From Streptacidiphilus jiangxiensis (lineage in GTDB: Bacteria; Actinomycetota; Actinomycetes; Streptomycetales; Streptomycetaceae): 64,000 bases of DNA. The DNA lies in assembly GCF_900109465.1 (NCBI RefSeq), contig NZ_FOAZ01000010.1, forward strand, positions 62,001 to 126,000, read 5' to 3'. The notes below the pieces were generated by a model. That model saw only the letters and a list, made by a program, of their open reading frames with translations, searched no databases and was not told the origin of the DNA. Made by a program: the position numbers and the translations under genes. Shown here piece after piece: positions 1-31,121 of this stretch (positions are counted from its first letter, which is position 1; each line of letters opens with the position of its first letter).

Positions 1-169
1 GGCGCATGTCCGTCCAGGTGGAGTCGATGTGGTCGAGGCAGGACTGGCGTGGGCCGCGAGTGCCCTCGGCGTGCCAGCCGGCGGGCAGGTCTCGGTCGGC
101 GCGCCAGATGGAGTACTGGTCCTCGTCGTTGCGGACGACGAGGTACTCGGGTTCCTGAACCGTGGTCAT
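1..169 (-). CDS. mbtH: MbtH-like NRPS accessory protein (3' end cut off by window edge)
   Basis: MbtH proteins are small chaperone-like partners that bind and activate NRPS adenylation domains. The minus strand reads from an ATG at 169, giving 56 residues before the left edge. These contain the family signature: an N-D-E-x-Q-Y-S-I-W block, then L-P-A-G-W, a Cys-Leu pair, and the closing W-T-D-M-R near residues 52-56. Full family members are about 65-75 residues, so only the last few codons are missing. A strong GGGAGGAG ribosome site lies just upstream. It is transcribed away from the NRPS genes at 361-21694 but very probably serves their adenylation domains. The family assignment is secure; which adenylation domain depends on it is inference. 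Confidence 0.9.
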   Translation of the reverse strand, partial: MTTVQEPEYLVVRNDEDQYSIWRADRDLPAGWHAEGTRGPRQSCLDHIDSTWTDMR

Positions 170-360: not shown

Positions 361-2694
361 ATGTCGTCGGACGTCCCCGAGAACGTGCTGCTGCCCGGTG
401 GGGGGTGGCGGCTGTGGGAGCACTTCGCCCTGCGTGGTCCCGGCTTCCCCGCCGAGGGGGTGCTGCGCATGGCACCGGCCGGACTGGCCGAGGCCGCGGA
501 CAAGTTCGGGCCGAAGGACGCCCTCGCCGGCCCCGACTGGGAGACGTTCGGGTCCGCGCTGGAGGAGGCCGCCGTCGAGACGGCCCGCCACCTGCAGACG
601 ATCGCCGCGACGCCCCGCTTCCGCGCCGCCGTGGCCTGGCAGAACCCGGCCGTGCTGCGCACCGGCATCGCACCGTTCCTGAACTGGACGCCGACCGCGG
701 CGAGCCGCACCAGCATGCCGCGCCAGCGCGAGGAGTTGGTCGCGCACTACTGGCAGCGATTCTGCGTCAAGAACGACACCATCGGCTTCTTCGGCCCCGT
801 CGGCTGGGGGCGCTGGGACCTGTCGACGCAGGGCGTCGAGATCGCGCCCGGCGACGGCTTCCTCGCCGTCTCCCGGGTGTACTTCGCCAGCTGGGGTATC
901 GACGCGCTCGCCAAGTCGCTCGGCGAGGACCCGGAGCTGATGGCGTGGATGCCGCCCACCCGCGTCTCGTTCGTCCGCGTCGGGGACGACGGCACGGTCC
1001 GCGTGCCCGGCCGGCCGCCGCAGGAGATCGCCGAGCCGGACCGCGCGGTGCTGCTGCGCTGTGACGGCACCCGCACCGCCGCCGTGATCGCCGAGGCGCT
1101 GGGTGAGACCCCGGACGCGGTGGTGGAGTCGGTGCGCCGACTGGCCCGCAAGCGCTGGGTGCGCTGGCAGGTGGACGTGCCCGCGAGCACCTACCCGGAG
1201 CAGGCGCTGCGCGCCGTGCTGGAGCGGGTCGGCGACGCGGGGCCGCGCGAGCGGGCGCTCGCCAAGCTGGAGGTGCTGGAGCGCGGCCGGGACGCCGTGC
1301 AGGCGGCCGGGATGGACGCGGACGCGCTGACCGCCGCCGTGGCCGCGCTGGAGGCGGACTTCGCGGAGCTGACCGCGACGGAGGCGCAGCGCGCCAAGGG
1401 CGAGCGGACGGCGCCCTGCCGCGGCCTCGTCTACAGCGACTCCCGCCGCGCCGCGACGGCGACGCTCGGCACCGCGCTGCTGGACGAGCTGGGCCCGCTG
1501 GAGCTGTGCCTGACTGCGGCGCGCTGGATGACGAACCGCTTCGCCGAGGTGATGGAGGGCCGTATCCACGAGGCGTGGCGACGCCTGAAGGAGCGCAGCG
1601 GCGGCGAAGGCGTCGACCTCGGCTCCCTGTGGCTGGAGTGCCTGCCCTCGCCGCACCCGATGTCCAAGGTGGACATCGTCGCGATCCAGCAGGAGCTGCG
1701 CGCCAAGTGGGCGCGCGTGCTGGACGTGCCCGAGGGTGTGCGCCGGGTGCGCCTGAGCTCGGCGGACCTGGCCGCCAAGGTGACCGAGGAGTTCGACGAG
1801 CCGGGCTCGGGCTGGTCGCTGGCCCGCTACTTCAGCCCGGACCTGCTGCTGCTGGCCGAGAGCGCCGACGCGGTCGCCCGCGGCGAGTTCGAATTGGTGC
1901 TGGGCGAGATGCACTGCGCGCTCAACACCATGGGCGCCTCGCTCTTCGTGCACCAGCACCCGGACCGGGACGAGCTGATCGCCGAGACCTCCCGGGACTT
2001 CCCCGGCCCGCGGCTGCTGCCGATGCTGGCCAAGGAGCTGCCGATCAAGTGGTCGGCCCGCAGCCGCCCGTCGCTGGACCGGCCGCAGGACCACGTGGTG
2101 GCGCTGGTCGACCAGACCGGCGACCCGTACCGACCGCGCACCGCACTGGCCGCGGACGTCGAGGTGGTCGAGGGCGAGGACGGCCGCCTGGTGGTGGTGC
2201 TGCCGGACGGCGTGCGCTACCCGGTGCTCGACGCCTACGCGAACACCCTCACCCAGAAGGCGATGGACCGCTTCACGATCCACCCGGAGGGCGACCACAC
2301 GCCCAGGATCACCGTGGACAAGGTCGTCGTCGCCCGCGAGACCTGGCAGCTGCCCGTCGCCGAACTCGCCGCGTTCGCGGACGAGAAGACCGAGGCGGGC
2401 CGGTTCGTGCGGGCCCGGCAGTGGCAGCGCGAACGGGAGCTGCCGCGCTTCGTCTTCGTGGTCTCGCCGACCGAACCGCGTCCGTTCTACGTGGACTTCG
2501 ACAGCCCGGTCTACGTGACGATCCTGGCCAAGGCGGCGCGCCGGCTCGCCCGCAAGGACCCGCAGGCGCGGCTGAAGGTCAGCGAGATGCTGCCGACGCC
2601 CGAGCAGGCCTGGCTGACCGACGACGAGGGCCACGCCTACACCAGCGAGCTGCGGTTCGTCGCCGTGGACCAGACCGTCCCGGGGGTGTCGTGA
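361..2694 (+). CDS. LanB-type protein (lantibiotic dehydratase N-domain / PEARL-like), copy 1
   Basis: Related proteins use aminoacyl-tRNA. LanB enzymes glutamylate Ser/Thr with Glu-tRNA, and PEARLs add amino acids to peptide C-termini. This 777-residue protein looks like the LanB N-terminal (glutamylation) domain only. The family's Arg-rich TPFGLF segment appears here as K-N-D-T-I-G-F-F-G-P-V-G-W-G (about residues 137-150), and the domain-closing segment L-P-R-F-V-F with D-F-D-S-P lies near residues 695-720. No separate SpaB-C/elimination domain follows. It is the first gene of an operon whose next genes overlap by 1-4 nt (A domain, PLP enzyme, carrier protein) and end with a paralogue at 5521-7806. 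Such a protein inside an NRPS operon suggests tRNA-dependent tailoring of a carrier-bound amino acid, which is inference. Start ATG has a good AAGGAG. Confidence 0.8.
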   Translation: MSSDVPENVLLPGGGWRLWEHFALRGPGFPAEGVLRMAPAGLAEAADKFGPKDALAGPDWETFGSALEEAAVETARHLQTIAATPRFRAAVAWQNPAVLRTGIAPFLNWTPTAASRTSMPRQREELVAHYWQRFCVKNDTIGFFGPVGWGRWDLSTQGVEIAPGDGFLAVSRVYFASWGIDALAKSLGEDPELMAWMPPTRVSFVRVGDDGTVRVPGRPPQEIAEPDRAVLLRCDGTRTAAVIAEALGETPDAVVESVRRLARKRWVRWQVDVPASTYPEQALRAVLERVGDAGPRERALAKLEVLERGRDAVQAAGMDADALTAAVAALEADFAELTATEAQRAKGERTAPCRGLVYSDSRRAATATLGTALLDELGPLELCLTAARWMTNRFAEVMEGRIHEAWRRLKERSGGEGVDLGSLWLECLPSPHPMSKVDIVAIQQELRAKWARVLDVPEGVRRVRLSSADLAAKVTEEFDEPGSGWSLARYFSPDLLLLAESADAVARGEFELVLGEMHCALNTMGASLFVHQHPDRDELIAETSRDFPGPRLLPMLAKELPIKWSARSRPSLDRPQDHVVALVDQTGDPYRPRTALAADVEVVEGEDGRLVVVLPDGVRYPVLDAYANTLTQKAMDRFTIHPEGDHTPRITVDKVVVARETWQLPVAELAAFADEKTEAGRFVRARQWQRERELPRFVFVVSPTEPRPFYVDFDSPVYVTILAKAARRLARKDPQARLKVSEMLPTPEQAWLTDDEGHAYTSELRFVAVDQTVPGVS

Positions 2695-4223
2695 TGCGCA
2701 CCTTCGCCGACGAGATCGCCGCTCACGGCGCCGCCGCTCCGGACCGCGTGGCGCTGACCACGCCCACCGGGGACGTGACCTACGGCGAGCTCGCCGCGCG
2801 CGTCGAGGCGGTGGCGGGCCTGCTGCGCAGGGCCGGCGCGGGCCCGGAACGGGTCTGCGCGGTCGCCGTGGAGCGCGGGCCGGACGCGGTGGTGGCCATG
2901 GCCGCCGTGGTCCGCGCGGGGGCGGCGTTCCTCACCCTGGACGTCGAGCAGCCGCCCGCCCGCCTGACCGCGCTGGTCACGAGCGGCGGCGCGGACCTGC
3001 TGCTGGCGGCCGACGACGCGCTCGCGGCGCGCCTGGACCTGCCGATCCCGGGACGCCCGGTGCTGCTGACGGACGAGACGACGGCGACAGCGACGGGGAC
3101 GGGGACAGCGACGGCGCGCCGCGAACCGGTGGCGGTCACGCCCGACCTGCTCGCCTACGTCAGTCACACCTCCGGTACGACCGGCGAGCCCAGTGCCGTG
3201 CTGATCGAACACCGCGGGCTGGACAACTACCTCCGGTTCGTGGCCCGTGACTTCGGCCTCGGGCCGGACACGGTCGCCCTGCAGGTCGCGCCGCTGGGCT
3301 ACGACGCCTCCATCCGCGACACCTTCGCGCCGCTGCTGGCGGGCGGACGGGTCGTGCTGCTGCCGCGCGGCGAGGTGCTGCGGCCCGAGTCGTTCGGCCC
3401 GGCGGTGCGGCAGTACGGCGTCAACACCCTGCTGAGCGTGACGCCGTCGTTCCTCTCCCACCTGGCCGGGCGGCCGGACGCCGGCGAACTGCTGGACGGG
3501 GTCCGCCTCATGGTCTCCAGCGGCGAGTCACTGCGCCCCTACCTGACCGCCGGCGGACGGGCGTTGGTGCCCGGCCGGCTGGTGAACCAGTACGGGCCGA
3601 CCGAGTGCACGATGACCTCGACGCGGCACACCGTCCCCGCCGCCGCGCCCGACACCGACAACGACGTCATCGGCACCCCGATCGACGGGGTGGTCGTCCG
3701 GCTCCTCGACGCGTCACTCGCTCCCGTCGCCGACGGCGAGGTGGGCGAGGTGTGCATCGGCGGCGCCGGAGTGGCCCGCGGCTACCGCGCCCGTCCCGGC
3801 CGTACCGCCGAGCGCTTCGTGCCGGACCCGCTCGGCCCACCCGGCGCCCGCCTCTACCGGACCGGCGACCTGGCCCGACGCAGCCCGGACGGCCTGCACT
3901 ACCTGGGCCGCAGCGACCGGCAGATCAAGATTCGCGGCTACCGGGTGGACCCGGCCGAGGTCGAGGGCGCGCTGCTGACCCACGACGCGGTCGCCGGCGC
4001 CGTCGTCACCGCCGACACCGACGCCCAGGGGCGGGTCTTCCTGCTGGCCCACGTCACCGGCACGTTGGACACCGTCACCGATCCGGCGCTGCGCCTGCAC
4101 CTGGCCCGGACCCTGCCGCCCTACCTGATGCCGCGCCGGTTCGTCCGCCTTGCCGAACTGCCCACCACGCGCGGCGGCAAGACCGACCGCACCGCGCTCG
4201 CCCAGGCGGGAGCAGGCCGATGA
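2694..4223 (+). CDS. Stand-alone NRPS adenylation domain
   Basis: Activates an amino or aryl acid as the adenylate and loads it on a carrier protein, most likely the free one at 5224-5478. The protein is 509 residues with no condensation or carrier domain. Core motifs are visible: A3 as T-S-G-T-T-G-E-P-S-A-V (the usual Lys after Pro is Ser), A4 around G-Y-D-A-S, A5 N-Q-Y-G-P-T-E, A7 Y-R-T-G-D-L, A8 with G-R-S-D-R-Q-I-K-I-R-G-Y, and A10 G-G-K-T-D-R with the catalytic Lys kept. My manual specificity read is D-A-R-S-V-S-Q-M-T-K, which keeps Asp235 (so an alpha-amino acid is plausible) but matches no code I know. The ATG overlaps the previous stop (TGATG); a GTG three bases earlier is an alternative. 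Its own stop overlaps the next ATG. Confidence 0.92.
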   Translation: MRTFADEIAAHGAAAPDRVALTTPTGDVTYGELAARVEAVAGLLRRAGAGPERVCAVAVERGPDAVVAMAAVVRAGAAFLTLDVEQPPARLTALVTSGGADLLLAADDALAARLDLPIPGRPVLLTDETTATATGTGTATARREPVAVTPDLLAYVSHTSGTTGEPSAVLIEHRGLDNYLRFVARDFGLGPDTVALQVAPLGYDASIRDTFAPLLAGGRVVLLPRGEVLRPESFGPAVRQYGVNTLLSVTPSFLSHLAGRPDAGELLDGVRLMVSSGESLRPYLTAGGRALVPGRLVNQYGPTECTMTSTRHTVPAAAPDTDNDVIGTPIDGVVVRLLDASLAPVADGEVGEVCIGGAGVARGYRARPGRTAERFVPDPLGPPGARLYRTGDLARRSPDGLHYLGRSDRQIKIRGYRVDPAEVEGALLTHDAVAGAVVTADTDAQGRVFLLAHVTGTLDTVTDPALRLHLARTLPPYLMPRRFVRLAELPTTRGGKTDRTALAQAGAGR

Positions 4224-5227
4224 CCGCACCCACGCTCCTCGCCGGGCCCGACTTCCGGCCCGCCGGTCGGCAGGACCTGCTCGACCCGGCCGAGGTGGCC
4301 CTTGCCGCCGCCCGCCTGGACGGCCGCGTCCGACACACCCCCCTGCTCCCGTTCCTGCCGGGGCTGCGGCTGAAGGCCGAGCACCTGCAGCACAGCGGCT
4401 CGTTCAAGTTGCGCGGCGCGACCAACGCCGTGCTCGCCCTGCAGGCGGACCGCGTCGTCACCGGCTCCTCCGGCAACCACGGCATCGCACTGGCCCGGCT
4501 CGCCCGTGACCTCGGCATCGAGCTGACGGTCGTGCTGGCCGCCGGAGCCAACCCGGACAAGGCCGCGCTGATCGCCGCCCTCGGCGCCCGCACTGTCACC
4601 GTGTCCGGCGGGGTCGCCGAACGCGAGTTGCGGGCGCAGGAGTTGGCCGAGGCGAGCGGGTCCGTACTGATCCCCTCCTCCGACCACGCACTGGTGGTCG
4701 CCGGGCAGGGCACGGTCGGCCGCGAGGTCCTGGCCGACTGCCCCGACGTGCGGACCCTCTACGTGCCCGCCGGGGGCGGCGGACTGCTGGCCGGCGTCTG
4801 CCTGTCCGCGCTGGACCATCCGGTCCGAGTGGTGGGCGTGGAACCGGCCAAGACCCCCCGCTACGCCCGATCCCTCGCCGCCGGACGCCCGTTGACGCTA
4901 CCGCCGAGCGACACCGTCGCCGACGGACTGCGCGGCCAGCGACCCGGCACCGTCACCTATCCCGTCGTCCGCGACCGGGTCGACGCCCTCGTCGCCGTCA
5001 CCGACGCCGAGATCCTCGCCGCGGCCGAACTCCTGGCCCGGCACGGCGTCGCCGCCGAACCCAGCGGAGCCGTCGCCGTGGCGGGGGCGCTCCGCCACCG
5101 CCTCACGGACAGCCCCACCCCCGCTGTCGCCGTCGTCTCCGGCGGCAACACCCCTGCGGCCCTGCGCGCCGCGACCGCACAACTCTCCCTGACCACCCTT
5201 CACGCACTCGAGGAGCAGTCGTCATGA
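4220..5227 (+). CDS. Threonine/serine dehydratase-like PLP enzyme (fold type II)
   Basis: Fold-type II PLP enzymes of this group deaminate threonine or serine to the 2-oxo acid through an enamine. The protein is 335 residues. The PLP lysine lies in S-G-S-F-K-L-R-G (about residue 54), the substrate loop is S-S-G-N-H-G (about 83-88), the phosphate-binding loop is P-A-G-G-G-G-L (about 180), and V-S-G-G-N closes the core near residue 310. There is no C-terminal ACT regulatory domain, so it resembles catabolic or biosynthetic short forms. It overlaps the adenylation gene by 4 nt and the carrier gene by 4 nt, so it is almost certainly part of the pathway. It may supply 2-oxobutyrate or a derived 2-aminobutyrate starter, or act on carrier-bound Thr/Ser. 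Diaminopropionate synthase is a less likely alternative. Confidence 0.85.
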   Translation: MTAPTLLAGPDFRPAGRQDLLDPAEVALAAARLDGRVRHTPLLPFLPGLRLKAEHLQHSGSFKLRGATNAVLALQADRVVTGSSGNHGIALARLARDLGIELTVVLAAGANPDKAALIAALGARTVTVSGGVAERELRAQELAEASGSVLIPSSDHALVVAGQGTVGREVLADCPDVRTLYVPAGGGGLLAGVCLSALDHPVRVVGVEPAKTPRYARSLAAGRPLTLPPSDTVADGLRGQRPGTVTYPVVRDRVDALVAVTDAEILAAAELLARHGVAAEPSGAVAVAGALRHRLTDSPTPAVAVVSGGNTPAALRAATAQLSLTTLHALEEQSS

Positions 5228-5478
5228 CCGTCACCACCGCCTCCGGCACCAGCACCGTCGAGCTCGTCGTCGCCGTCTACCAGGACGCCCTGGGCGTCAC
5301 CGGCCTCGACCAGGAGAGCGACTTCTTCGAGCACGGCGGCGACTCGCTCACCGCCTTCCAGATCACCAGCCGCCTGCAGGACGCGCTCGGCGCGGAGATC
5401 CCCGTCGCCCTGGTCTTCGCCTACCCGAGCCCGGTCGAGCTGGCCGAGGTGCTCGAAGCCGACTTCGGCCAGGCCTGA
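5224..5478 (+). CDS. Stand-alone peptidyl carrier protein
   Basis: An 84-residue acyl/peptidyl carrier protein. The phosphopantetheine attachment site reads D-F-F-E-H-G-G-D-S-L with Ser near residue 41, and the helical pattern on both sides is typical of a PCP. The ATG overlaps the upstream stop by 4 nt. Together with the stand-alone adenylation domain two genes upstream it forms a free loading pair, so one substrate is activated and modified in trans. The flanking LanB-type proteins and PLP enzyme are the natural candidates to act on what is tethered here, before transfer to the first condensation domain of the NRPS at 7999. Identity as a carrier is clear; partners are inferred from gene order. 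Confidence 0.95.
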   Translation: MTVTTASGTSTVELVVAVYQDALGVTGLDQESDFFEHGGDSLTAFQITSRLQDALGAEIPVALVFAYPSPVELAEVLEADFGQA

Positions 5479-5520
5479 CCGCCGCCCGGCACCCGACCAC
5501 GAAGAGCGAGGAGACCTGAG

Positions 5521-7806
5521 GTGACCGAGATCCGTCTGCCCGGCGGCCGCTGGCGGCTGTGGGAGCAGTTCGGCCTGCGCGGGCCGGGCTTCCCCGCCGA
5601 CGGGGTGCTGCGCCTCGCTCCCGGCGGCCTGGCCGGGGACGCCGACAAGTTCGGCCCCGACGACACCCTGGCCGGCCCCGACTGGGACGCCTTCGCCGAA
5701 CGCTTCGACGAGGCCGCCGTCACCACCGCCCACGAGCTGCAGGCGATCGCCCGCACACCCTCCTTCCGCGAGGCGGTGGCCTGGCAGAACCGGCCCGTGC
5801 TCGACTCCGGCGTCAAGCCGTTCCTCAACTGGACCCCGACCGCGGCCGGTCGCACCAGCATGCCGCGCCAGCGCGAGGAGCTGGTCGCGCACTACTGGCA
5901 GCGGTTCTGCGTCAAGAACGACACCATCGGCTTCTTCGGCCCCGTCGGCTGGGGTCGCTTCGACGGCGCGGCGTCCGACGCCGTGGACGTCGACCCCGGC
6001 GAGGGCCTGGTCGCGGCCACCGAACTGTACTTCGCCGGTTGGGCCGTGGACGCCCTCGCCGCGACCCTCGGCGCCGACCCGGCGGCCCGCGCGTGGATCG
6101 CGCCCCGGCGGGTGCCGTTCGTCCGCGTGGCGGACGAACACGTCGTGGTGCCCGGCCGCCCCCCTCAACCGGCGACGCCGGAGCTGCGGGCGGTGCTGTC
6201 CCGCTGCGACGGCGTCCGCACGGCGCACGCCCTGGCCGAGGAGCTGCCGGGGGTCGACGTCGCGGCCGCGCTGGACGAACTCGTGCGCCGCCGCTGGGCG
6301 GTGTGGCGCCTGGAACTCCCGGCGGACACCCGCCCCGAACGTCGCCTGCACGCCTGGCTGCACACCGTCGGCGACCCCGGCCTGCGCGAACGCGGGCTGC
6401 ACCGCCTGGAGTTGCTGGAACGCGGCCGTGAACGGGTGCGCCGGGCCGAGGGAGCGGAGGCACTCGTCGCCGCGATGTCTCTGCTGGAACGGGAGTTCGT
6501 CGAGCTGACGGAGACCGTCGCCGTCCGCGAGAAGTCCGCGGGTACGGCACCGTGCCGCGCCCTGGTCTACTCCGACTGCCGTCGCGCCGCGACGGCGCGG
6601 ATCGGCGACCGGGTGGCCGAGGAGCTCGCGGCGGCCCTGGAGCCGCTGCTGACGGCCGCCGGCTGGCTCACCTCCAAGCTGGCCGCGGAGGTGACGGCAC
6701 GCGCGGAGGAGGTGTACGACAAGCTCGCGGCGCAGGGACCGGTGGACCTGGCGTCGTTCTGGTTCGCCTGCATGCCGATCCTGCACGGTGACGCGCGGCG
6801 TGCGGCGCAGCGGCTCCAGGAGGAGTTCCAGGCACACTGGCATGCTGTCCTCGCCCCCGAGGAGGGCGTCCGGCGCATCCGGCGCGACCACGACTCCGTC
6901 GCCACGGAGGTGGCGCGAAGGTTCGCGTGGAACGGCGGCCCGGGCTGGACCGCGGCGCGCTACGCCAGTCCCGACGTGATGATCGCGGCGGAGAGCGCGG
7001 AGGCGATCGACCGAGGCGAGTACCGGTTCGTCCTGGGCGAGCTGCATCTCGCGTCGAACACGCTGGGCGCCTCGCTCTTCGTCCACCAGCACGCCGAGCC
7101 GGGCGAGTTGGCGGCGTTGACGGACGAGGACCACCCTGGACCGCGGCTGCTGCCACTGCTGCCGAAGGAGCACCGCGCGCGGCTCTCCGCCCGGGTCAAG
7201 TACGCCCTGCGCCGCCCCGAGGACTACCAGGTCGCCCTCGTCGACCAGACCGGCGACCCGGCCGATCCCCGGACGGTGCTGAGCGCCGACGTGTCGGTCG
7301 TCCGGCGGGACGACGGCCTGCGGCTGGTCCTGCCGGACGGTGCGGAGTTCCCCGCGGTCGACGCGTTCGCGCACGTGCTGACGACACTGGCGATGGACCT
7401 GTTCCAGGTCCTGCCGGAGACGGCCGGGCACAGCCCCCGCGTGACGGTGGGCCGCCTCGTGCTCGCCCGCGAGACGTGGCGCCTGCGCGCGTCGGACCTG
7501 ACCTTCGCCGAGGAGAAGGACGAACGCCGCCGCTTCGTCCGCGCCCGTCAGTGGCGCGAGCGCGAGGGCCTGCCCCGGTTCGCGTTCGTGGTCTCCCCGA
7601 CGGAGTCGCGGCCGTTCTACGTGGACTTCGACAGCCCGGTGTACATGAACGTGCTGGCGAAGGCGGTGAGGCGCCTGGCGCGCAAGGATCCGGACGGCCG
7701 GGTGGTCATCACGGAGATGCTGCCGTCCCCGGAACAGACCTGGCTCACGGACCAGGAGGGACACACGTACACCAGCGAACTGCGGTTCGTTGCAGTGACC
7801 TCTTAA
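5521..7806 (+). CDS. LanB-type protein (lantibiotic dehydratase N-domain / PEARL-like), copy 2
   Basis: Paralogue of the protein at 361-2694, 761 residues from a GTG start with GAGGAGACCTGAG upstream. The two share long near-identical blocks, for example W-Q-R-F-C-V-K-N-D-T-I-G-F-F-G-P-V-G-W-G and the C-terminal F-Y-V-D-F-D-S-P-V-Y. They diverge in the middle, so this is an old duplication within one operon and not a recent copy. Like copy 1 it appears to be the LanB glutamylation-type domain without an elimination domain. Two copies flanking a free A-PCP pair suggest either a heterodimer or two successive aminoacyl-tRNA-dependent steps. The stop codon TAA sits on the first base of a large inverted repeat that probably terminates this first transcript. 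Confidence 0.8.
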   Translation: MTEIRLPGGRWRLWEQFGLRGPGFPADGVLRLAPGGLAGDADKFGPDDTLAGPDWDAFAERFDEAAVTTAHELQAIARTPSFREAVAWQNRPVLDSGVKPFLNWTPTAAGRTSMPRQREELVAHYWQRFCVKNDTIGFFGPVGWGRFDGAASDAVDVDPGEGLVAATELYFAGWAVDALAATLGADPAARAWIAPRRVPFVRVADEHVVVPGRPPQPATPELRAVLSRCDGVRTAHALAEELPGVDVAAALDELVRRRWAVWRLELPADTRPERRLHAWLHTVGDPGLRERGLHRLELLERGRERVRRAEGAEALVAAMSLLEREFVELTETVAVREKSAGTAPCRALVYSDCRRAATARIGDRVAEELAAALEPLLTAAGWLTSKLAAEVTARAEEVYDKLAAQGPVDLASFWFACMPILHGDARRAAQRLQEEFQAHWHAVLAPEEGVRRIRRDHDSVATEVARRFAWNGGPGWTAARYASPDVMIAAESAEAIDRGEYRFVLGELHLASNTLGASLFVHQHAEPGELAALTDEDHPGPRLLPLLPKEHRARLSARVKYALRRPEDYQVALVDQTGDPADPRTVLSADVSVVRRDDGLRLVLPDGAEFPAVDAFAHVLTTLAMDLFQVLPETAGHSPRVTVGRLVLARETWRLRASDLTFAEEKDERRRFVRARQWREREGLPRFAFVVSPTESRPFYVDFDSPVYMNVLAKAVRRLARKDPDGRVVITEMLPSPEQTWLTDQEGHTYTSELRFVAVTS

Positions 7807-7998: not shown

Positions 7999-10900
7999 GT
8001 GACTGCCACTTCCGCCCCACGCGCAGCGTCCTTCGCGCAGCGCCGGCTCTGGTTCCTGGACCAACTCGCCAAGGACGCCTCGGGCTCGCTGCTGCCGCTC
8101 GCGCTGCGCCTGCGCGGAGCCCTCGACGTGGACGCGTTGGCGCGCGCCCTGCGGGGGATCGCCGACCGCCACGAGGTCCTGCGGACCCGCTTCACCGCCG
8201 TCGGCGGCGAGCCGGTGCCGCAGCTGGATCCGGCGGGAAGCACCGTGCTGGAGCAGGTGGAGGCCACGGACGTGGCGACGCTCTTCGCGGAGCAGCTGAG
8301 CCGCCCGCTCGACCTGGCGACCGAGCACCCGATGCGGGCCGCGCTGGCGCGCCTGGCCGACGACGACCACGTGCTGCTGGTGACGATCCACCACATCGCG
8401 GTGGACGGCTGGTCCTGGGACGTGCTGATGCGCGAACTCGCCGCCGGCTACCAGGGCGAGGCGGTCGCCGCGCCCGCGATGCAGTACAGCGACGTGGCCG
8501 CCGCGCAGGCGGAGCGCCTGAGCGGGGCGCGGATGGAGAAGCTGCTCGGCTACTGGCGCGAGCGCCTGGACGGGCTCGCGCCGCTGGCGCTGCCGACGGA
8601 CCGGCCGCGACCGCGGTTCTGGGACGGCGCCGGCGACGTGGTGCGGTTCCGGCTCCCGGCCGAGCTGGTCGCCGAGGTGGACGTGCTGGCCCGCACGCAC
8701 CGCGCGACGCGCTACATGTTGCTGCTCGCGGTCTACCAGGCACTGCTGGGCCACTGGTCCGGCCGCACCGACATCGCCGTCTGCTCCACCCTCGCCGACC
8801 GGGGCAGCGCCAAGGTGGCCGACCTGATCGGGCCGTTCGTCAACACCGTCGTCCTGCGCGCCGACCTGTCCGGCGGGCCGGGCTTCGCCGCACTGCTGGA
8901 CCGGGTGCGCGGCGGTGTCCTGCAGGACCTGTCCCGTTCCGAGGCGCCGTTCGACACCGTGGTGCGGGCCGTCGGCGGCGAGCGGGACCTCTCCCGGCAC
9001 CCGCTCGCACAGGCCTCGTTCACGCTGCTCAACACCGCCCACCACGAGCCGCACCTGCCGGGCCTGGACGTGGAACTGGTGCCGCCGCCGCTGGGCGGGA
9101 CGGCACTGGACGTCTTCCTCGACCTGAACCTCTGCCCGGACGGCACCATCGCCGCGCGGCTGCAGTACGCGACCGCGCTGTTCGACGCGGCCACCATGGA
9201 GCGGTTCAGCACCGCCTACGTGGAGCTGCTGCGCCTGGTGCTGGCGGAGCCCGAGACGCCGGTGCGGGAGCTGGCCGCACGCCTGGCGCCGTTGCCGGGC
9301 ACCGCGCAGGGCACCGACGTCCGGACCCTCCTGACCGAGTGGAGTCGCGCCGCCGACCGCCCCGAGGCCGAGCCCGCGCCCGTCGCAATCAGCGGCCCGG
9401 CCGAGGCGGTCGCGCTCGTCTGCGCGGACCGCCGGGTGAGCTACGGCGAGCTGGACGGCCTGACCGGCGGCCTGGCGAACGCGCTGCGCGACGCAGGCGT
9501 CGGTGTCGGCGCGCCGGTCGGCGTGCTGGTGCGGCGCGGGATCTGGTCGGTGGCCGCGATGGCGGCGGTCTGGCGCGCGGGCGGCGTGTACGTGCCGCTG
9601 GACGCGGACCTGCCGGAGCAACGCCTCACGTTCATGGTGCGGGAGGCGGGCCTGGCCGCGCTGGTCGCGGACGAGAAGACGGCGTTCCTGGCCGAGGAGC
9701 TGGCCGAGTCGGCCGCAGGCAGCACGGTCGAGGCGCCGGCCGCCGGAACCGCCACCGAGCAGGCCGCCTCCGCCGAACCCCGCTCGACCAAGCCCGCCGA
9801 CGCGGCTCCCGCCGGGGGCCACGCGCCGCTCCCGGTCGTCCGCGTCGAGCGTGTCGTGCCCGACACCGACGCGCCGCGCCACGCCCCGCACCCGGCCGAG
9901 CTCGCGCACGTCATCTTCACCTCCGGCTCCACCGGCCGCCCCAAGGCCGTCGGGGTCGAGCACCGCGCGCTCGCCGCGCACGTCGCCGCCGCGCGGGAGC
10001 GGTTCGCGGTGACGGCCGAGGACAAGGTGCTGGCCTTCTCCTCCTTCTCCTTCGACGCCTCGCTCGACCAGCTGCTGCCGGCCCTCGGCTGCGGCGCGCA
10101 GGTGGTGATCCGACCGGACGAGCCGTGGCTGCCGACGCAGATCGCCGAGGCCGTCGCCCGGCACGGGTTGACCGTCGTCAACCTGCCGCCGACCTTCTGG
10201 ACCGAGCTGGCGTTCACCCTCGACCGCCGGTCCGCGGCCTCCCTGGTGACGCTGCGCCTGCTGATCCTCGGCGGCGAGGCGGTGCCGTCCGGCGCCCTCG
10301 CCGCGTGGCAGGAGGTCGCGCCGTGGGTGCGGGTCGTCAACGCCTACGGGCCGACCGAGACCACCGTCACCGCCGCGACCTTCGACGCGACCGAGCAGCC
10401 CGTGGACGGGCGGGTGCCGATCGGACGGCCGCTCGGGTGGCGCCGCGTCTACGTCGTCGACGCGCACGACGAGCCCGTGCCCGTCGGGGTGCCGGGCGAG
10501 CTGCTGATCGGCGGGCCGGAGGTGGCGCGCGGCTACCTCGGCCGGCCGGGGCTGACCGCCGAGCGGTTCGTCCCGGACCCCTTCGCCGCCGACGGCTCGC
10601 GGCTCTACCGCACCGGCGACGTCGTGCAGTGGCTGCCGTCGGGCGCGCTGGAGTTCCTGGGCCGCCGCGACGACCAGGTGAAGATCCGCGGCTTCCGTAT
10701 CGAGCTGGGCGAGGTCGAGGCGGTGCTGCGGGCCGCGCCCGGCGTCGTCGCCGCCGCCGTCCGGCCGGACGCGGCCACCGGGCAGAGCCTGGGCGGCTAC
10801 GTCGTCGGCGACGGCCTGGACACCGCCGCGCTGCGCGCCTTCTGCGCCGAACGACTCCCCCACTACGCCGTGCCCGCCGATTTCCTGGTGCTGGACGCGC

Positions 10901-13900
10901 TGCCGGTGACCGCCTCCGGCAAGCTGGACCGCAACGCCCTGCCGGACCTGCACCCGGACCGGTCCGCCTCCGGCGCCGACTACGTGGCGCCGCGCACCGA
11001 CGACGAGCGGATCATCGCCTCCATCTGGGCCGACGTGCTGGGCGTGGAGCGGATCGGGCTCGACGACGGCTTCTTCGAGCTGGGCGGCCACTCGCTGCTC
11101 GCCACCATGGCCGTCTCCCGCGTCGCCGAGCGGCTGGGCCGCGAGGTGGAGCTGCGGGCGCTGTTCGAGAACCCGCGCATCCGCGAGTTCGGGCCGCTGG
11201 TCGCGGCCTCGCGCAAGTCGGCGGGCGTGCAGGTGGTGCCGGTGGACCGCTCCGGACCGCTGCCGCTCTCCTTCGCGCAGGAGCGCCTGTGGTTCCTGGA
11301 CCGCACCTCGGACCAGGGCGACGAGTACGTGCTCTGGTTCTCCTGGCGACTGCGCGGCCGTCTCGACCGGACGGCCTGGCAGGCCGCGCTCGACGCGATG
11401 GCCGAGCGCCACGAGGTGCTGCGCACCGCCCTGCTGGAGGTCGACGGGCGCCCGGTGCAGCAGGTCTGCGACCCGGTGCCGGTGCCGTTGGAGTGGTTCG
11501 AGGCCGCGCAGGCGCGCGACGAGGAGGAGGTCCGCCGCCAGGCGCACACGCTGGCCACCCGCCGGTTCGACCTGACCCGCCCGCCGATGCTGCGCGCCGG
11601 CGTGTGGCAGCTGGACGACGAGGAGCAGGTCGCCGTCGTCGTCTTCCACCACGTCGCCACCGACGGCTGGTCCAAGGACGTGTTCATCCAGGAGCTCACC
11701 GAGCTCTACCGGGCCGAGCTGGCCGGCCGCCGGGCTGTTCTGCCGCCGCTGCCGGTGCAGTACGGCGACTACGCCGTCTGGCAGCGCGACCGCGCCGAGA
11801 GCGGTGCCCTCGACCAGCAACTGGCCCACTGGACCGAGGCGCTGCGTGGTGTGCCGGTGCTGGAGCTGCCCACCGACCGTCCCCGTCCGGCCGGTTGGTC
11901 GGGGCGTGGCGGCGCGGTGGAACTGACGTTGCCGACGGAGATGGGCGCCCGGCTGGAGTCCTTCGCCCGCGAGCACGGCGTGACGCGGTTCATGGTGCTG
12001 CTGGCCGTCACCCAGGCGGTGCTGGCGCGCTGGACCGGGCAGACGGACATCGCGGTGGGCACCCCGGTGACCGGGCGCGGCCGGGCCGAGCTGGAGCGGC
12101 TGGTCGGCTTCTTCGTCAACACCGTCGTGCTGCGCGCGGACCTCGGCGACGAGCCGACGTTCACCGCGCTGCTGGAGCAGGTCAAGGGCCGGGTGCTGGA
12201 CGCCTTCGACCACCAGGAGGTGCCCTTCGAGCGCGTCGTCGAACAGCTGCGGCCCGAACGCGACCTGTCGCGCAACCCCCTGTTCCAGGTCATGGTGGAC
12301 GTGCAGGAGTCGGCGACGGGCGGCCCCGGCATCGAGGGCCTGGCGGCGAGCGACTTCACGCTTCCCTGGGGCTCCGCCAAGTTCGACCTGACGGCGGCGT
12401 TCCTGCTCTACCCGCACCGCTTCGCGCTCAACGTCGAGTACGCCGCCGACCTGTTCGACCCGGGGACGGCGCTGCGGTTCGCCGCGCACGTCGGCCGGGT
12501 GCTGGAAGCGGTGCTGGAACAGCCCGACGCGGTCGTGGACCGGATCGACCTGCTGACCGCCGAGGAGCGGGCCGAGTTGGTGGCCGCCGCCGGCGCCGAC
12601 GCGGCCGCCGCACCGCCGTTCGCGGTCACGGGCGCGCCGGAGGACATCGCCCTGGTCTGCGAGGGCGAGCGGCTGAGCTACGCCGAGCTCGACGCGCTGA
12701 CGGGCGGCCTGGCCGCCGCGATGGTCGCGGCCGGGGTCACCGCCGGTACGCCGGTGGGTGTCTGCGTGCGCCGCGGCACCTGGTCGGTGGCGGCGATGAC
12801 GGCGGTGTGGCGCGCGGGCGGCATGTACGTGCCGCTGGACGTGCAGCTGCCCGCCGAGCGCCTGCGCTACATGCTGGCCGAGGCCGGCGTGACGCTGGTC
12901 CTGGCGGACGCGGTGACGGCCCCCGTGCTGGCCGGGCTGGACGTGCCGCTGCTGCGCGTCGACGAGGTCCGGCCGGACGCGGACGGGCCCCGGCACGTCC
13001 CGGCGCCGGACGACCTGGCGTACACCATCTTCACCTCCGGCTCGACGGGCCGCCCGAAGGCCGTCGGCGTCGAGCACCACGCGCTGGCCGCGCACGTCGC
13101 CGCCGCCCGCGAGCTGTTCCGGCTGACGCCCGCGGACAGGGTGCTGACCTTCGCCTCGCTCTCGTTCGACGCCTCGCTGGAGCAGATCCTGCCCGCGCTG
13201 AGCGTCGGCGCGCGGGTGGTGATCCGCCCCGACGAGGTGTGGTCGGTGGAGGAGCTGGCCGCGCGGGTGCGGGACGAGGGCGTCACCGTCATGGAGCTGA
13301 CCCCGTCCTACTGGGAGGAGGTCGTCGCCCGCCTGGACGTGGTCGCGCCCGACCTGGTCTCGCTGCGGCTGCTGGTCACCGGCGGCGAGGTGCTGCCGTC
13401 CGCACCGCTGGCCACCTGGTTCCGGCACCTGTCGCACGTGCACGTGGTCAACACCTACGGGCCGACCGAGACCGTCATCTCCGCCACCGCGCACGAGATC
13501 GACGGGCCCGTCGACGGCCGCGTCCCGATCGGCCGCCCGCTCGGCTCGCGCCGCGCCTACGTCGCCGACCCGCACGGCGCGCTGGTGCCCGTCGGCATCC
13601 CCGGCGAACTGCTGGTCGGCGGACCGGAGTTGGCCCGCGGCTACCTGGGCCGCACGGCGCTGACCGCCGAGCGGTTCCTGCCCGACCCGTTCGGGCCCGG
13701 CGGCGGACGCGTCTACCGCACCGGCGACCTGGTGCGTCGACTGCCCAACGGCGAGCTGGAGTTCGTCGGCCGCAGCGACAACCAGGTGAAGATCCGCGGC
13801 TTCCGGGTCGAGCCCGGCGAGGCCGAGGCGGTGTTGCGTCGCCACCCGGGCGTGCACGCCGCGGCCGTGCTGGTCCGCGAGCTGCGCGGCGAGCCGGCAC

Positions 13901-14379
13901 TCGTCGGCTACGTCGCGGGCGCCGGTCTCTCGGCCGACCAGCTGACCGCGCACTGCCGCGCCGAACTGCCCGGCTACCTCGTCCCCTCCGTCTTCGTGCT
14001 GCTGGACCAGCTGCCGCTGACCGTGCAGGGCAAGCTGGACACCGCCGCCCTGCCCGAGCCGGAGGCGCCCGCGCCGGTGGAGTTCGTCGCCCCGCGCACG
14101 CCCACCGAGATCGTCATCGCGCAGATCTGGGCCGAGGTGCTGGGCGTGGCCAAGGTCGGCGTCCAGGACGACTTCTTCGCCCTCGGCGGGCACTCGCTGC
14201 GCGCAGTCTCCGCAGCCTCCCGACTGCGGACCGCCTTCGACTGCCCCGTCCAGGTCCGTGACCTGTTCGAGCACCCGACCGTCGAACTGCTGGCCGCCGA
14301 GGTCGAGCGGCAGCTCGTGGAGCTGATCTCCGCCATGAGCGAGGACGAGATCGACCTGTCCCTGACGTGGACCGACTGA
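7999..14379 (+). CDS. NRPS with two modules: C-A-PCP-C-A-PCP
   Basis: A 2126-residue bimodular synthetase. Rough domains: C1 10-440 (H-H-I-A-V-D-G near 132), A1 465-975, PCP1 with Ser near 1030 (E-L-G-G-H-S-L), C2 1088-1530 (H-H-V-A-T-D-G near 1217), A2 1540-2010, PCP2 Ser near 2067 (A-L-G-G-H-S-L), then a short acidic tail. There is no epimerase, methyltransferase or TE. All core motifs look intact. Manual specificity reads are D-A-D-N-I-G-A-V-T-K for A1 and D-A-E-E-V-G-T-I-S-K for A2; the two acidic pocket residues in A2 favour a basic amino acid (Lys, Orn, Arg type). A1 carries an Ala/Pro-rich insertion at about residues 563-614 between motifs A2 and A3. The N-terminal C domain means it accepts a donor, probably from the free PCP. 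GTG start with GGAGG. Confidence 0.96.
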   Translation: MTATSAPRAASFAQRRLWFLDQLAKDASGSLLPLALRLRGALDVDALARALRGIADRHEVLRTRFTAVGGEPVPQLDPAGSTVLEQVEATDVATLFAEQLSRPLDLATEHPMRAALARLADDDHVLLVTIHHIAVDGWSWDVLMRELAAGYQGEAVAAPAMQYSDVAAAQAERLSGARMEKLLGYWRERLDGLAPLALPTDRPRPRFWDGAGDVVRFRLPAELVAEVDVLARTHRATRYMLLLAVYQALLGHWSGRTDIAVCSTLADRGSAKVADLIGPFVNTVVLRADLSGGPGFAALLDRVRGGVLQDLSRSEAPFDTVVRAVGGERDLSRHPLAQASFTLLNTAHHEPHLPGLDVELVPPPLGGTALDVFLDLNLCPDGTIAARLQYATALFDAATMERFSTAYVELLRLVLAEPETPVRELAARLAPLPGTAQGTDVRTLLTEWSRAADRPEAEPAPVAISGPAEAVALVCADRRVSYGELDGLTGGLANALRDAGVGVGAPVGVLVRRGIWSVAAMAAVWRAGGVYVPLDADLPEQRLTFMVREAGLAALVADEKTAFLAEELAESAAGSTVEAPAAGTATEQAASAEPRSTKPADAAPAGGHAPLPVVRVERVVPDTDAPRHAPHPAELAHVIFTSGSTGRPKAVGVEHRALAAHVAAARERFAVTAEDKVLAFSSFSFDASLDQLLPALGCGAQVVIRPDEPWLPTQIAEAVARHGLTVVNLPPTFWTELAFTLDRRSAASLVTLRLLILGGEAVPSGALAAWQEVAPWVRVVNAYGPTETTVTAATFDATEQPVDGRVPIGRPLGWRRVYVVDAHDEPVPVGVPGELLIGGPEVARGYLGRPGLTAERFVPDPFAADGSRLYRTGDVVQWLPSGALEFLGRRDDQVKIRGFRIELGEVEAVLRAAPGVVAAAVRPDAATGQSLGGYVVGDGLDTAALRAFCAERLPHYAVPADFLVLDALPVTASGKLDRNALPDLHPDRSASGADYVAPRTDDERIIASIWADVLGVERIGLDDGFFELGGHSLLATMAVSRVAERLGREVELRALFENPRIREFGPLVAASRKSAGVQVVPVDRSGPLPLSFAQERLWFLDRTSDQGDEYVLWFSWRLRGRLDRTAWQAALDAMAERHEVLRTALLEVDGRPVQQVCDPVPVPLEWFEAAQARDEEEVRRQAHTLATRRFDLTRPPMLRAGVWQLDDEEQVAVVVFHHVATDGWSKDVFIQELTELYRAELAGRRAVLPPLPVQYGDYAVWQRDRAESGALDQQLAHWTEALRGVPVLELPTDRPRPAGWSGRGGAVELTLPTEMGARLESFAREHGVTRFMVLLAVTQAVLARWTGQTDIAVGTPVTGRGRAELERLVGFFVNTVVLRADLGDEPTFTALLEQVKGRVLDAFDHQEVPFERVVEQLRPERDLSRNPLFQVMVDVQESATGGPGIEGLAASDFTLPWGSAKFDLTAAFLLYPHRFALNVEYAADLFDPGTALRFAAHVGRVLEAVLEQPDAVVDRIDLLTAEERAELVAAAGADAAAAPPFAVTGAPEDIALVCEGERLSYAELDALTGGLAAAMVAAGVTAGTPVGVCVRRGTWSVAAMTAVWRAGGMYVPLDVQLPAERLRYMLAEAGVTLVLADAVTAPVLAGLDVPLLRVDEVRPDADGPRHVPAPDDLAYTIFTSGSTGRPKAVGVEHHALAAHVAAARELFRLTPADRVLTFASLSFDASLEQILPALSVGARVVIRPDEVWSVEELAARVRDEGVTVMELTPSYWEEVVARLDVVAPDLVSLRLLVTGGEVLPSAPLATWFRHLSHVHVVNTYGPTETVISATAHEIDGPVDGRVPIGRPLGSRRAYVADPHGALVPVGIPGELLVGGPELARGYLGRTALTAERFLPDPFGPGGGRVYRTGDLVRRLPNGELEFVGRSDNQVKIRGFRVEPGEAEAVLRRHPGVHAAAVLVRELRGEPALVGYVAGAGLSADQLTAHCRAELPGYLVPSVFVLLDQLPLTVQGKLDTAALPEPEAPAPVEFVAPRTPTEIVIAQIWAEVLGVAKVGVQDDFFALGGHSLRAVSAASRLRTAFDCPVQVRDLFEHPTVELLAAEVERQLVELISAMSEDEIDLSLTWTD

Positions 14380-14407: not shown

Positions 14408-21690
<7,283 letters not shown>

Positions 21691-21694
<4 letters not shown>

Positions 21695-22926
21695 CCCCGA
21701 CCACGCTGACGCGCACCGGCTTCACCGAGCGCTACCTGCTCGACCCGGCCGTCAACGCCGACCCCTACCCGTACCTCGACGCGATGCGCGACCACGAGCC
21801 GGTCTTCTGGAGCCAGATGCACCGCGCCTGGTTCGTCACCGGCTACGACCAGGTCATGCAGTGCCTGCGCGACCCGGCCGTCTCCGCCGACCGGGTGCGC
21901 CCGCTGATGGACGCCGTCCCCGAGGGCGCCCGCGAGGACGCCGAGCGCGCCTTCGGCATCCTCTCCAGCTGGATGGTCTTCAACGACCCGCCGAACCACC
22001 GCCGGCTGCGCCAGGTCTTCCAGGAGCAGTTCGCCGCCAGGGCGGTGGCCCGGTACCGCACCTTCACCGAGCGGGCCACCCACGCCATGCTGGCCCGCAA
22101 GGCCGCGCCCGGGCGCGCCGGCGACCTCTACGCGGACATCGCCAAGCCGCTGCCCGCGCTGGTCTTCGCCCGCTGGCTCGGCGTCCCGCAGGCCCACGGC
22201 CCCTCGTTCTGGTACTGGAACGCCAAGGTGGCCGACCTGGTGCTGGGCACCGCCCAGCAGGAGAGCGAGTACCGCACCTCGCTGCAGTCGCTGTGCAGCC
22301 TGGAGGACTACCTCGCCGACCTGGTCGCCCAGCGGCAGGCGGACCCCAAGGACGACCTGATCAGCTCCGTCCTGGCCGGCGGCCGGATCGGCGACACCGT
22401 CACCACCCCCGAGTTCGTCGGCATGCTGACCCAGATGGCCTTCGCCGGCGGCGAGACCACCAGCAACCTCATCGCCAACACCATGCTGGCGCTGCTCTCC
22501 CAGCCCGAACTGCTCGCCGCGGTCCGCGCCGAACCGGAGCTGGGCGCGGCCGCGGTGGAGGAGACGCTGCGCCTGGACGGCCCGTCGAAGATGTCCGTGC
22601 GCAACGCCGCCCGCGATTTCGAGCTCGGCGGCCACACCGTCCACGCGGGCGACCGGATCTTCCTGGTCACCGCCGCCGCCAACCGCGACCCCGCCAAGTT
22701 CCCCGAGCCGGACCGCTTCGACCTGCACCGCGCCGACGGCACCCACCTCGGCTTCGGCTTCGGCGCCCACTTCTGCATCGGCGCCGCGCTGGCCCGCCTG
22801 GTCGCCGGCGTCGTGGTCTCCGTCCTGGTCCGCGACCACCCGCAGCTCGCCCTCGACGGGCAACGGCTCGCCTGGCAGCCCTCGCTGCTCAACCGCAGCC
22901 TGACCGCCCTGCCCGTCCGCTACTGA
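21691..22926 (+). CDS. Cytochrome P450
   Basis: A soluble 411-residue bacterial P450 that probably hydroxylates or otherwise oxidises the peptide or a carrier-bound residue. The I-helix oxygen-activation motif is A-G-G-E-T-T-S (about 251-257), the K-helix E-E-T-L-R gives ExxR (about 290), and the haem loop is [10 protein letters not shown] with the Cys ligand near residue 361. The ATG overlaps the NRPS stop (ATGA), so it is translationally coupled to the termination synthetase. The redox partners (ferredoxin, reductase) are not nearby. The substrate cannot be predicted from sequence alone. Confidence 0.96.
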
Positions 22927-24283: not shown

Positions 24284-24384
24284 GGGGCGCGAGGAACTGC
24301 GCGATGAGCCACCGACATGCGGATGGTCCTCACCGCGCAGGGCCATCCGCCCCCGGTGGTTTCTCGCGCAGTTCCTCGCGCCCC
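24284..24384. repeat. 21-bp perfect inverted repeat (REP-like), copy 2; bidirectional terminator
   Basis: Arms at 24284-24304 and 24364-24384 match the arms of the element at 7806-7909, and the loop also keeps the GATGG/CCATC inner stem. It lies between the converging exporter and LAL regulator genes, the ideal place for a bidirectional terminator. The right arm and part of the loop are translated: they encode the last ~18 residues of the regulator before its stop at 24330. Confidence 0.85.
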
Positions 24385-27411: not shown

Positions 27412-27639
27412 TCACGTGTGCTGGACGGAGACCTGGGTGTCGAAGGTGCTGAGGGCGACCACGATGCCGCTGGTCAGCACGAGTCCGGCGAGCACCCGGG
27501 CCCGGGCGCAGACCCGGTTGCGGCCCGACAGCGTGATGCCGCCGGCGGGGTCCTGCTCCATCGCGTCCGCGGCCTCCACGGCGTCCAGGGCGTCCAGGGC
27601 GTCGGTCGTGGCGATCGCGGCGGTGGGGAGCTGGTTCAT
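27412..27639 (-). CDS. Candidate RiPP precursor peptide for the adjacent LanM protein
   Basis: A 75-residue peptide 81 nt downstream of lanM on the same strand, with an AAGGGA ribosome site and a hairpin terminator. The N-terminal half (about 1-33) is acidic and leader-like (D-A-L-D-A-L-D-A-V-E-A-A-D-A-M-E), ending in P-A-G-G, which resembles a double-Gly cleavage site. The C-terminal part has one Cys (near residue 43), several Ser/Thr, and a strongly hydrophobic stretch (L-A-G-L-V-L-T-S-G-I-V-V-A-L) before S-T-F-D-T-Q-V-S-V-Q-H-T. With one Cys it could form at most one thioether ring, which fits the partner's lost zinc site. I know no named family for it. It could instead be a small membrane protein. 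Confidence 0.55.
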   Translation of the reverse strand: MNQLPTAAIATTDALDALDAVEAADAMEQDPAGGITLSGRNRVCARARVLAGLVLTSGIVVALSTFDTQVSVQHT

Positions 27640-31095: not shown

Positions 31096-31121
31096 GAGAA
31101 CAACGTCGCAGAGCCGCGCGA

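Follow-up and report, generated by a model that had tools for sequence, protein, structure and literature searches.

Why should a bacterium place two genes of the LanB family around the genes for a free-standing adenylation (A) domain and a free-standing peptidyl carrier protein (PCP), upstream of two non-ribosomal peptide synthetases (NRPSs)? This arrangement is found in the window, a stretch of 64,000 nucleotides (nt) from Streptacidiphilus jiangxiensis (contig NZ_FOAZ01000010.1, positions 62,001 to 126,000), where five genes on the plus strand encode LB1, the A domain, a pyridoxal phosphate (PLP) enzyme of the PALP type, the PCP and LB2. Our best reading, which we hold tentatively, is that LB1 and LB2 are tRNA-dependent ligases, both of which extend an acidic, PCP-bound residue at the carboxylate left free. 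The gene order given in the first-pass annotation, as well as its overlaps of 1-4 nt through the first four genes, is borne out by coordinates and Pfam matches: LB1 and the A gene share 1 nt, the A and PALP genes 4 nt, and the PALP and PCP genes 4 nt. LB2 follows the PCP gene after a gap of 42 nt. The five genes, referred to as the cassette, are as follows.

361..2694, plus strand: LB1, predicted PEARL-like LanB-family protein, 777 amino acids (aa) (PF04738, E 3.4e-51).
2694..4223, plus strand: free-standing A domain, 509 aa, pocket DARSVSQMT (AMP-binding, 1.1e-67; AMP-binding_C).
4220..5227, plus strand: fold-type II PLP enzyme (PALP), Thr-dehydratase/serine-racemase-like, 335 aa (PF00291, 3e-67).
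5224..5478, plus strand: free-standing PCP, 84 aa, motif FFEHGGDSL (PF00550, PP-binding, 2.5e-15).
5521..7806, plus strand: LB2, predicted PEARL-like LanB-family paralogue of LB1, 761 aa (PF04738, E 6.1e-51; conserved positions; trees).

The two outer proteins are the key to the locus. Both exceed the curated cut-off of PF04738 (Lant_dehydr_N) and cover profile positions 2-649 of 649, a full-length match in the profile search that the first-pass annotation had proposed, and the predicted structure of LB1 has the LanB fold. PDB sequence searches with LB1 or with an LB1 alignment gave no LanB relative; the fold search alone returned one. Neither protein contains a second domain, and the C-terminal elimination domain PF14028 is absent from both as well as from this contig, its two matches in the whole genome lying on contigs C41 and C67 only. 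In the model of BhaB, a peptide aminoacyl-tRNA ligase (PEARL), D558, E575 and E813-x-R815 bind ATP, Mg and the acceptor carboxylate (PMC11962472). Judged by spacing to these residue numbers rather than by alignment with a characterized PEARL, the corresponding D494, E516 and E763-x-R765 are present in 24/24 LB1/LB2 rows, together with the Y..R positions for the tRNA end. Other NRPS-associated LanBs carry the same D, E and E-x-R positions in 11/11 rows, and the proteins of two tandem multi-LanB clusters (L186 and L188, taken as PEARL clusters on gene content) do so for E-x-R in 12/12, for D in 11/12 and for E in 10/12 cases. In true LanBs of the genus, D, E and R765 were found in 0/12; this set consists of nine proteins picked by a TPFG pattern, L158 (dropped by that pattern), L001 (own genome) and L172. 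The RxTPFG-like motif of L001 and L172, which reads RATPTG in L158, is replaced by KNDTIGFFGP in LB1/LB2. Because the PEARL-type positions are absent from true LanBs and PF14028 occurs on other contigs only, LB1 and LB2 are, as far as their sequences tell, very probably PEARL-like proteins and not dehydratases. The first-pass annotation had taken both for LanB-type proteins of the aminoacyl-tRNA-using kind, which agrees with the domain match, the fold of LB1 and the PEARL-type positions; of its proposal that a carrier-bound amino acid is either extended or dehydrated with aminoacyl-tRNA, extension is favored and dehydration is not.

We considered LanB dehydration as the main reading and rejected it on these grounds. 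It would have Ser or Thr loaded onto the carrier, its hydroxyl glutamylated by LB1 and LB2 via Glu-tRNA, and glutamate eliminated by the PLP enzyme to leave a dehydroamino acid starter. The LanB fold and family of the two proteins would suit such a scheme, and a PLP enzyme whose nearest NCBIfam relatives are Ser/Thr dehydratases would place an eliminase at hand. We nevertheless judge it very unlikely, as the ATP-type D/E/E-x-R residues have no counterpart in any of the 12 true LanBs, PF14028 is confined to other contigs, the Arg in the pocket of the A domain (below) is unsuited to Ser or Thr, and the PLP enzyme could eliminate water without any glutamylation. The class I lanthipeptide dehydratases NisB, MibB and TbtB share the N-domain fold with LB1; unlike them, LB1 and LB2 lack the C-terminal elimination domain and show PEARL-type positions. 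The PEARLs TglB, AmmB and BhaB have D, E and E-x-R as in LB1/LB2 (again by spacing to BhaB numbers), and they extend ribosomal scaffold peptides (PMC11962472, PMC12945691), whereas the neighbors of LB1 and LB2 are a PCP and NRPSs.

What, then, is loaded onto the PCP? Across the cassette, the pocket of the free A domain reads DARS[VACL]SQMT in 72 A domains found by hidden Markov model (duplicates of overlapping loci included), and a stricter motif search recovers the full pattern in 53 of 57 genome_contigs loci that match the free A domain; of the four without it, one is truncated. Pocket position 239 is Arg. This residue was found in 0/61 background A domains; across 25 other LanB loci, counting near-copies, it occurs in 9/43 (p 2e-4). 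The background comprises the best-scoring TIGR01733 matches of the own genome, Amycolatopsis, S. griseofuscus and Crossiella, all of which hold the cassette, after removal of two cassette A domains from 63; some of its members are also among the 79 A domains of NRPSs at cassette loci, and p-values from the pooled 140 were not used. The nine Arg239 codes are DVRHVALLA, DPRNFGFQV, DPRHCGFQA, EVRHLALLA, DPRHCAFQA (twice), DPRH (cut), DPRHVGAQL and DPRSIGGQL. Arg239 points to an acid with a second carboxylate, without specifying which of the two is activated, and we consider an acidic substrate with a spare carboxylate likely. That the free A domain keeps one pocket throughout the cassette, whose Arg239 points to an acidic substrate, is new.

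Two described systems help to interpret this trio. Like the cassette, VinN-VinL-VinO (vicenistatin) and AfcQ-AfcK-AfcP (AFC-BC11) combine a free-standing A domain and carrier with a PLP enzyme. The substrate of VinN is 3-methylaspartate, activated as a beta-amino acid; that of AfcQ is L-Asp, activated at the side chain, with an Arg believed to hold the alpha-carboxylate. The PLP enzymes VinO and AfcP work on the carrier-bound acidic amino acid before it is handed over (PMC11253843, PMC12186527, PMC11284099). There are differences: VinO and AfcP are decarboxylases, VinM adds Ala by adenylation, and no LanB is named in the passages of these papers available to us. Moreover, the pocket Arg lies at position 331 in VinN and at 239 in the cassette A domain, which has Thr at VinN 331 and thus no VinN-type pocket. 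Side-chain (iso) activation by the free A domain is a question on which we see the chances as even.

Related A domains occur near other LanBs. In eight loci of the window's family (L202-L205, L207-L210), a free A domain of a single type, with the code DYYPTTMRI, lies close to a LanB; the nearest PDB match of the L203 domain is VinN (3wvn, E 2e-109), with Arg331 kept, and L203 also contains a free carrier as well as PALP and OCD genes. A mini-cluster of a LanB, a free carrier, an Arg239/His278 A domain, an ATP-grasp protein and a condensation (C) domain is present at L190 (16000-26000), L313 (7000-15800) and L053 (10000-19600). L190 and L313 include a methylaspartate mutase and L053 has none; these three mini-clusters add weight to the reading of an acidic substrate. 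L190 lies on a plasmid of 146 kb in which a relaxase gene is annotated. A published list assigns the code DPRHLALLAK to an 'AMA' moiety, under a heading naming alpha-aminoadipic acid and with the abbreviation left unexpanded in the available part (PMC12283262). That code is close to EVRHLALLA of L190 and DVRHVALLA of L053.

The PLP enzyme falls below the cut-off of every NCBIfam model among the best 25 of 35 matches, its highest score being to a Ser/Thr dehydratase (206.6 of 331 bits). The motif SSGNH is present in 65/65 cassette copies (duplicates included), while the three homologues in the own genome show SAGNH, SSGNH and neither. We take the second Ser of SSGNH to be a mark of serine-racemase-type enzymes, and a racemase is a possibility we entertain with some doubt. 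PLP enzymes of this kind bind a free alpha-carboxylate, which fits side-chain loading. A free carrier adjoins the LanB not only in the cassette: the same is seen in L053, L311, L313 and L337, and one lies near the LanB in L190 and L203.

The cassette is widespread. Relatives of LB1 (E <=1e-40) occur in 53/297 genomes of the family, the own genome included, many of them paired about 5 kb apart, and a pattern scan with LB1 across 84,980 species genomes yielded 66 loci. The five-gene order is kept in 49/66 loci of other genomes, so that the search for clusters of the same order suggested in the first-pass annotation was successful; in four of the 49 (L084, L090, L094, L103) a LanB or A copy is in pieces, and L090 contains an inverted piece besides the broken gene copy. 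In eleven loci less than 5.2 kb follow LB1, three loci (all Amycolatopsis) have LB1-PALP-LB2 with the A gene and its adjoining PCP gene 20-21 kb away on the same contig and in the same cluster, and two show the LB2 side alone. The one remaining locus, L118, and L120 among the eleven have a short LanB end piece, perhaps the end of LB2, followed by other genes. An annotated plasmid record of Streptomyces fungicidicus carries the same set of five genes. Hosts include Streptomyces, Streptacidiphilus, Kitasatospora, Salinispora, Amycolatopsis, Actinosynnema, Crossiella and others; a phylum-wide sample gave a match in 2/396 genomes, too few for a test. The cassette order is not due to chance.

Two NRPS programs accompany the cassette. 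The first is that of the window and is shared by S. griseofuscus, Actinosynnema and S. fungicidicus. The second, found in Amycolatopsis, Salinispora, Crossiella and S. seoulensis, has a second PALP and an OCD gene, a carbamoyltransferase gene and, in part, aminotransferase and TauD genes (assigned by Pfam for Amycolatopsis and S. seoulensis, and by similarity or eye for the others). The second PALP and OCD genes are presumably SbnA/SbnB-like. Since the cassette comes with at least two NRPS programs, its product would be used by different assembly lines. The notion that S. griseofuscus-type clusters are devoid of NRPSs was rejected, as these sit beyond the MFS gene. S. griseofuscus-type and S. 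fungicidicus clusters also contain a peptidase S51 gene, annotated 'peptidase E' in one record. Peptidase E cuts alpha-Asp-X dipeptides, which would fit an amidated Asp.

Such conservation also bears on where the LanBs work. The PLP enzyme and the A-PCP pair could supply a non-protein amino acid to the NRPSs, while the LanBs amidate the C-terminus or a side chain of the finished peptide off-line; SnaE, a LanB-annotated protein discussed below, may act on either a T-bound intermediate or a free molecule (PMC11212132). The tight coupling of LB1-A-PALP-PCP-LB2 over 49 loci and the free carriers adjoining or near other LanBs favor work on a carrier-bound substrate instead, and render the off-line role unlikely.

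Beyond the cassette, the window contains the following genes (T, thiolation domain; TE, thioesterase).

1..169, minus strand, divergent: MbtH-like protein (PF03621, E 1.5e-19); the gene continues 44 bases past the window's first base.
7999..14379, plus strand: NRPS1, C-A-T-C-A-T, codes DADNIGAVT and DAEEVGTIS (Pfam).
14408..21694, plus strand: NRPS2, C-A-T-C-A-T-TE, codes DFWNVGMVH and DAFVMAGVW (Pfam).
21691..22926, plus strand: cytochrome P450 (PF00067, heme loop).
23006..24271, plus strand: major facilitator superfamily (MFS) exporter (PF07690).
24330..27281, minus strand: large LuxR-type (LAL) regulator (AAA_16 and GerE; relatives in related clusters).
27412..27639, minus strand: small peptide, 75 aa, one Cys.
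27721..31128, minus strand: LanM-like gene (DUF4135 and LANC_like).
31603..32232, plus strand: LuxR-type regulator (GerE), followed by a second, shorter LuxR-like frame to 32588.

The MbtH-like gene adjoins the cassette in many loci, and the LuxR pair was found in all six related clusters read. The code DFWNVGMVH of NRPS2 is, we assume, Thr-type. Together with the LAL regulator and the LuxR pair, the LanM-like gene and the peptide recur in many cassette clusters; the S. fungicidicus counterpart of the former is annotated 'type 2 lanthipeptide synthetase LanM', and in L309 and L337 the peptide has DTTCCP near its end. This is a ribosomal peptide linked to an NRPS cluster, perhaps with a role as a signal. 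Farther along, the window encodes a subtilase (52936-54009) and, on the minus strand, an RHS-repeat protein (58765-62193) that is probably an interbacterial toxin, since its C-terminus matches the Pfam domain 'Cytotoxic'.

The LanM-like gene and its peptide also raise the possibility that LB1 and LB2 play an ordinary PEARL or lanthipeptide role in the biosynthesis of a ribosomally synthesized and post-translationally modified peptide, acting on the small peptide (27412-27639) and not on the PCP. Their company in many cassette clusters is in line with this. The candidate scaffold peptide gene lies beside the LanM-like gene, 20 kb away from the cassette. Against such a role, the cassette genes are retained in the clusters read from Actinosynnema, Crossiella and Amycolatopsis, which gave no LanM-like or peptide match. 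The five genes stay together without the LanM-like and peptide genes, and in the window the A and PCP genes are coupled by overlaps to LB1; we regard this role as highly improbable.

From gene content, conserved order, fold, LanB signature and A-domain code we infer the following reactions. The five genes would build a special starter on the free PCP. The free A domain would load aspartate, 3-methylaspartate or a homologous acidic amino acid. Arg239 would grip whichever carboxylate escapes activation, and the residue on the carrier would thus retain one free, unactivated carboxylate. The PLP enzyme would act on the amino acid, most likely altering its configuration. LB1 and LB2 would each phosphorylate a free carboxylate with ATP and then join an amino acid from aminoacyl-tRNA, such that one or two residues would grow from the starter in the direction opposite to that of the NRPSs. 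The first C domain of NRPS1 would take the carrier thioester as donor, NRPS1 and NRPS2 would extend forward, and TE release and P450 oxidation would come last. Two successive additions are plausible given that the catalytic positions checked are kept in both LanBs, and we put this forward with slightly less confidence than the reading as a whole. The most elaborate version is a two-way line, in which side-chain loading of the acid would leave its entire amino acid head, with alpha-amine and alpha-carboxylate both free, on the carrier. With PLP-set configuration, two tRNA-derived residues on the alpha-carboxylate and NRPS extension on the other arm, we consider this version rather unlikely as a whole.

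The same proteins could also work in the forward sense, moving an aminoacyl group onto the alpha-amine of the PCP-bound residue to yield a normal di- or tripeptide. LanB N-domains pass an aminoacyl ester to a nucleophile, and tRNA-dependent addition to NRPS-made chains is described for PacB (PMC12945691) and for an L/F transferase acting with a C-minus NRPS (PMC10548850). N-terminal extension of this kind would have no need for the conserved ATP positions, and both the PEARL and SnaE precedents run the other way, which makes it distinctly unlikely in our view.

SnaE of the sna cluster (threopeptin) is the closest precedent for extension at a carboxylate: it is proposed to form an amide at an unactivated carboxylate using ATP and aminoacyl-tRNA, and, like LB1/LB2, it is LanB-annotated; it belongs to an NRPS-polyketide synthase cluster and has no carrier peptide gene (PMC11212132). 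The sna cluster has one LanB, in contrast to two here with a free A-PLP-PCP trio between them. In addition, its carboxylate is attributed to ureido chain reversal by a C domain with the motif EHHxxHDG (PMC11212132), which is absent from the window; ureido chain reversal was rejected for the window, as its C domains are not of this type. The first-pass annotation could tie the arrangement to no described pathway. For two LanBs around a free A-PCP pair this stands, since full-text searches of a library without most subscription journals gave no account of it; a single LanB in an NRPS cluster is already described with SnaE (PMC11212132). The wider idea that tRNA-dependent chemistry is joined to a carrier-bound starter is also our best reading, as the locus, part of an NRPS cluster, has a free A-PCP pair flanked by LanB-family proteins of the aminoacyl-tRNA-using kind.

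The LanB trees place LB1 and LB2 among their relatives. A quick tree of 64 proteins set true LanBs apart (support 100) and gave LB1 and LB2 one clade each. A more careful tree (53 rows, without true LanBs and with a second locus set) joined LB1 and LB2 in one clade, LB2 being weakly held (78/70); L309 falls within LB1, and L337 groups with the LB2 proteins. L338 is sister to all LB1/LB2 proteins (100/100); around them, in an order the tree leaves open, are L190+L313+L029, L311/L312 and L310 (whole group 100/100). The LanBs of L190 and L029/L053, which the quick tree suggested as sister to LB1/LB2, were rejected in this position in favor of L338. L337 and L338 are the two best-scoring LanBs outside the paired cassette. 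At 8868-11463 the former has a LanB close to LB2 that is accompanied by a free PCP, a LanM-like gene and the same regulators, with no paired partner nearby; the LanB of the latter (8916 onwards) likewise has no paired partner nearby. Behind the LanB of L309 comes an A domain of reduced length (DARGVGQLP, 389 aa), and the locus also has the same regulators and a LanM-like gene. It looks like a decayed cassette and is not an independent case. Two adjacent LanB-type genes are also found in other NRPS clusters (L187, L311, L312, L316, L318, L319, L323), of which L311 has a free PCP as well. In twelve loci of the second set (L314, L315, L339-L348), an A domain with the code DLLWLGGTF or DALWLGGTF shares a frame of about 1900-2140 aa with a LanB domain at its end, a possible NRPS-LanB fusion; nine carry A domains with D[AML][PT]H[LV]GGF[AI].

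How far does the pocket evidence reach beyond the cassette? Before a second set of NRPS-LanB loci was drawn, we predicted that an A domain of this kind or a ureido C domain would be present in half or more of them. The first set comprised 25 loci, namely 22 of the 31 non-cassette loci of the family search, L187, and the plasmid records L189 and L190, the latter two read over 38 kb and the others over 20 kb or less. Twenty of the 25 fit (nine Arg239, eight VinN-like, three ureido). For the second set, 40 loci outside the paired cassette were read in 346 genomes of another family; the counts overstate independence, because each set contains near-copies (L191/L192, L195/L196, the eight VinN-like loci and the fusion-like twelve). 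The ureido motif EHHxxHDG was found in L195, L196, L200, L317, L320 and L330.

Several results weigh against our reading of the cassette. Only 7/40 loci of the second set fit (Arg239 in L309, L313, L331 and L333; ureido in L317, L320 and L330), so that the prediction failed there, and we rejected the view that NRPS-LanBs are generally accompanied by a ureido C domain or by an A domain of the Arg239 or VinN-like type. Arg239 occurred in 4/82 A domains of this set (p 0.14 versus the 61 background domains). The association is not a general one, and even close to the cassette it applies in part of the cases: no Arg239 A domain was found in the 20 kb read at L337, L338, L310, L311 and L312, nor did their genomes contain a free-A match above 43% identity at E 1e-75. 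Since the wider tree showed that some of the nearest LanB relatives do without such an A domain, we lowered our estimates slightly, both for an acidic substrate and for the reading as a whole. The pocket itself adds two reservations. The cassette code has Ser278 and not the His278 of the RH codes. The Glu residue of surfactin is reportedly alpha-linked and thus alpha-activated. Mutation of its A domain showed that Lys239 governs Glu versus Gln (PMC11355689); as Lys239 here reads the acid of an alpha-activated Glu, Arg239 alone is no proof of side-chain activation. Furthermore, the free PCP may serve as a shuttle rather than as the starter, no peptidase E match was found in the contig stretch 42001-80000 around the window's cassette, and the PEARL-type positions were, as stated, assigned by spacing.

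LanB-annotated genes in a subset of NRPS clusters are currently labeled dehydratases. If our reading is true, the cassette would provide a second route, besides ureido chain reversal, to a carboxylate that can be extended only by a tRNA-dependent ligase, and it would add a branch to the product that is invisible to A-domain prediction. If the two-way line were also true, ribosomal-type and NRPS-type chains would grow in opposite directions from one residue. Given that the cassette recurs across genera, one answer would inform many unexplained clusters.

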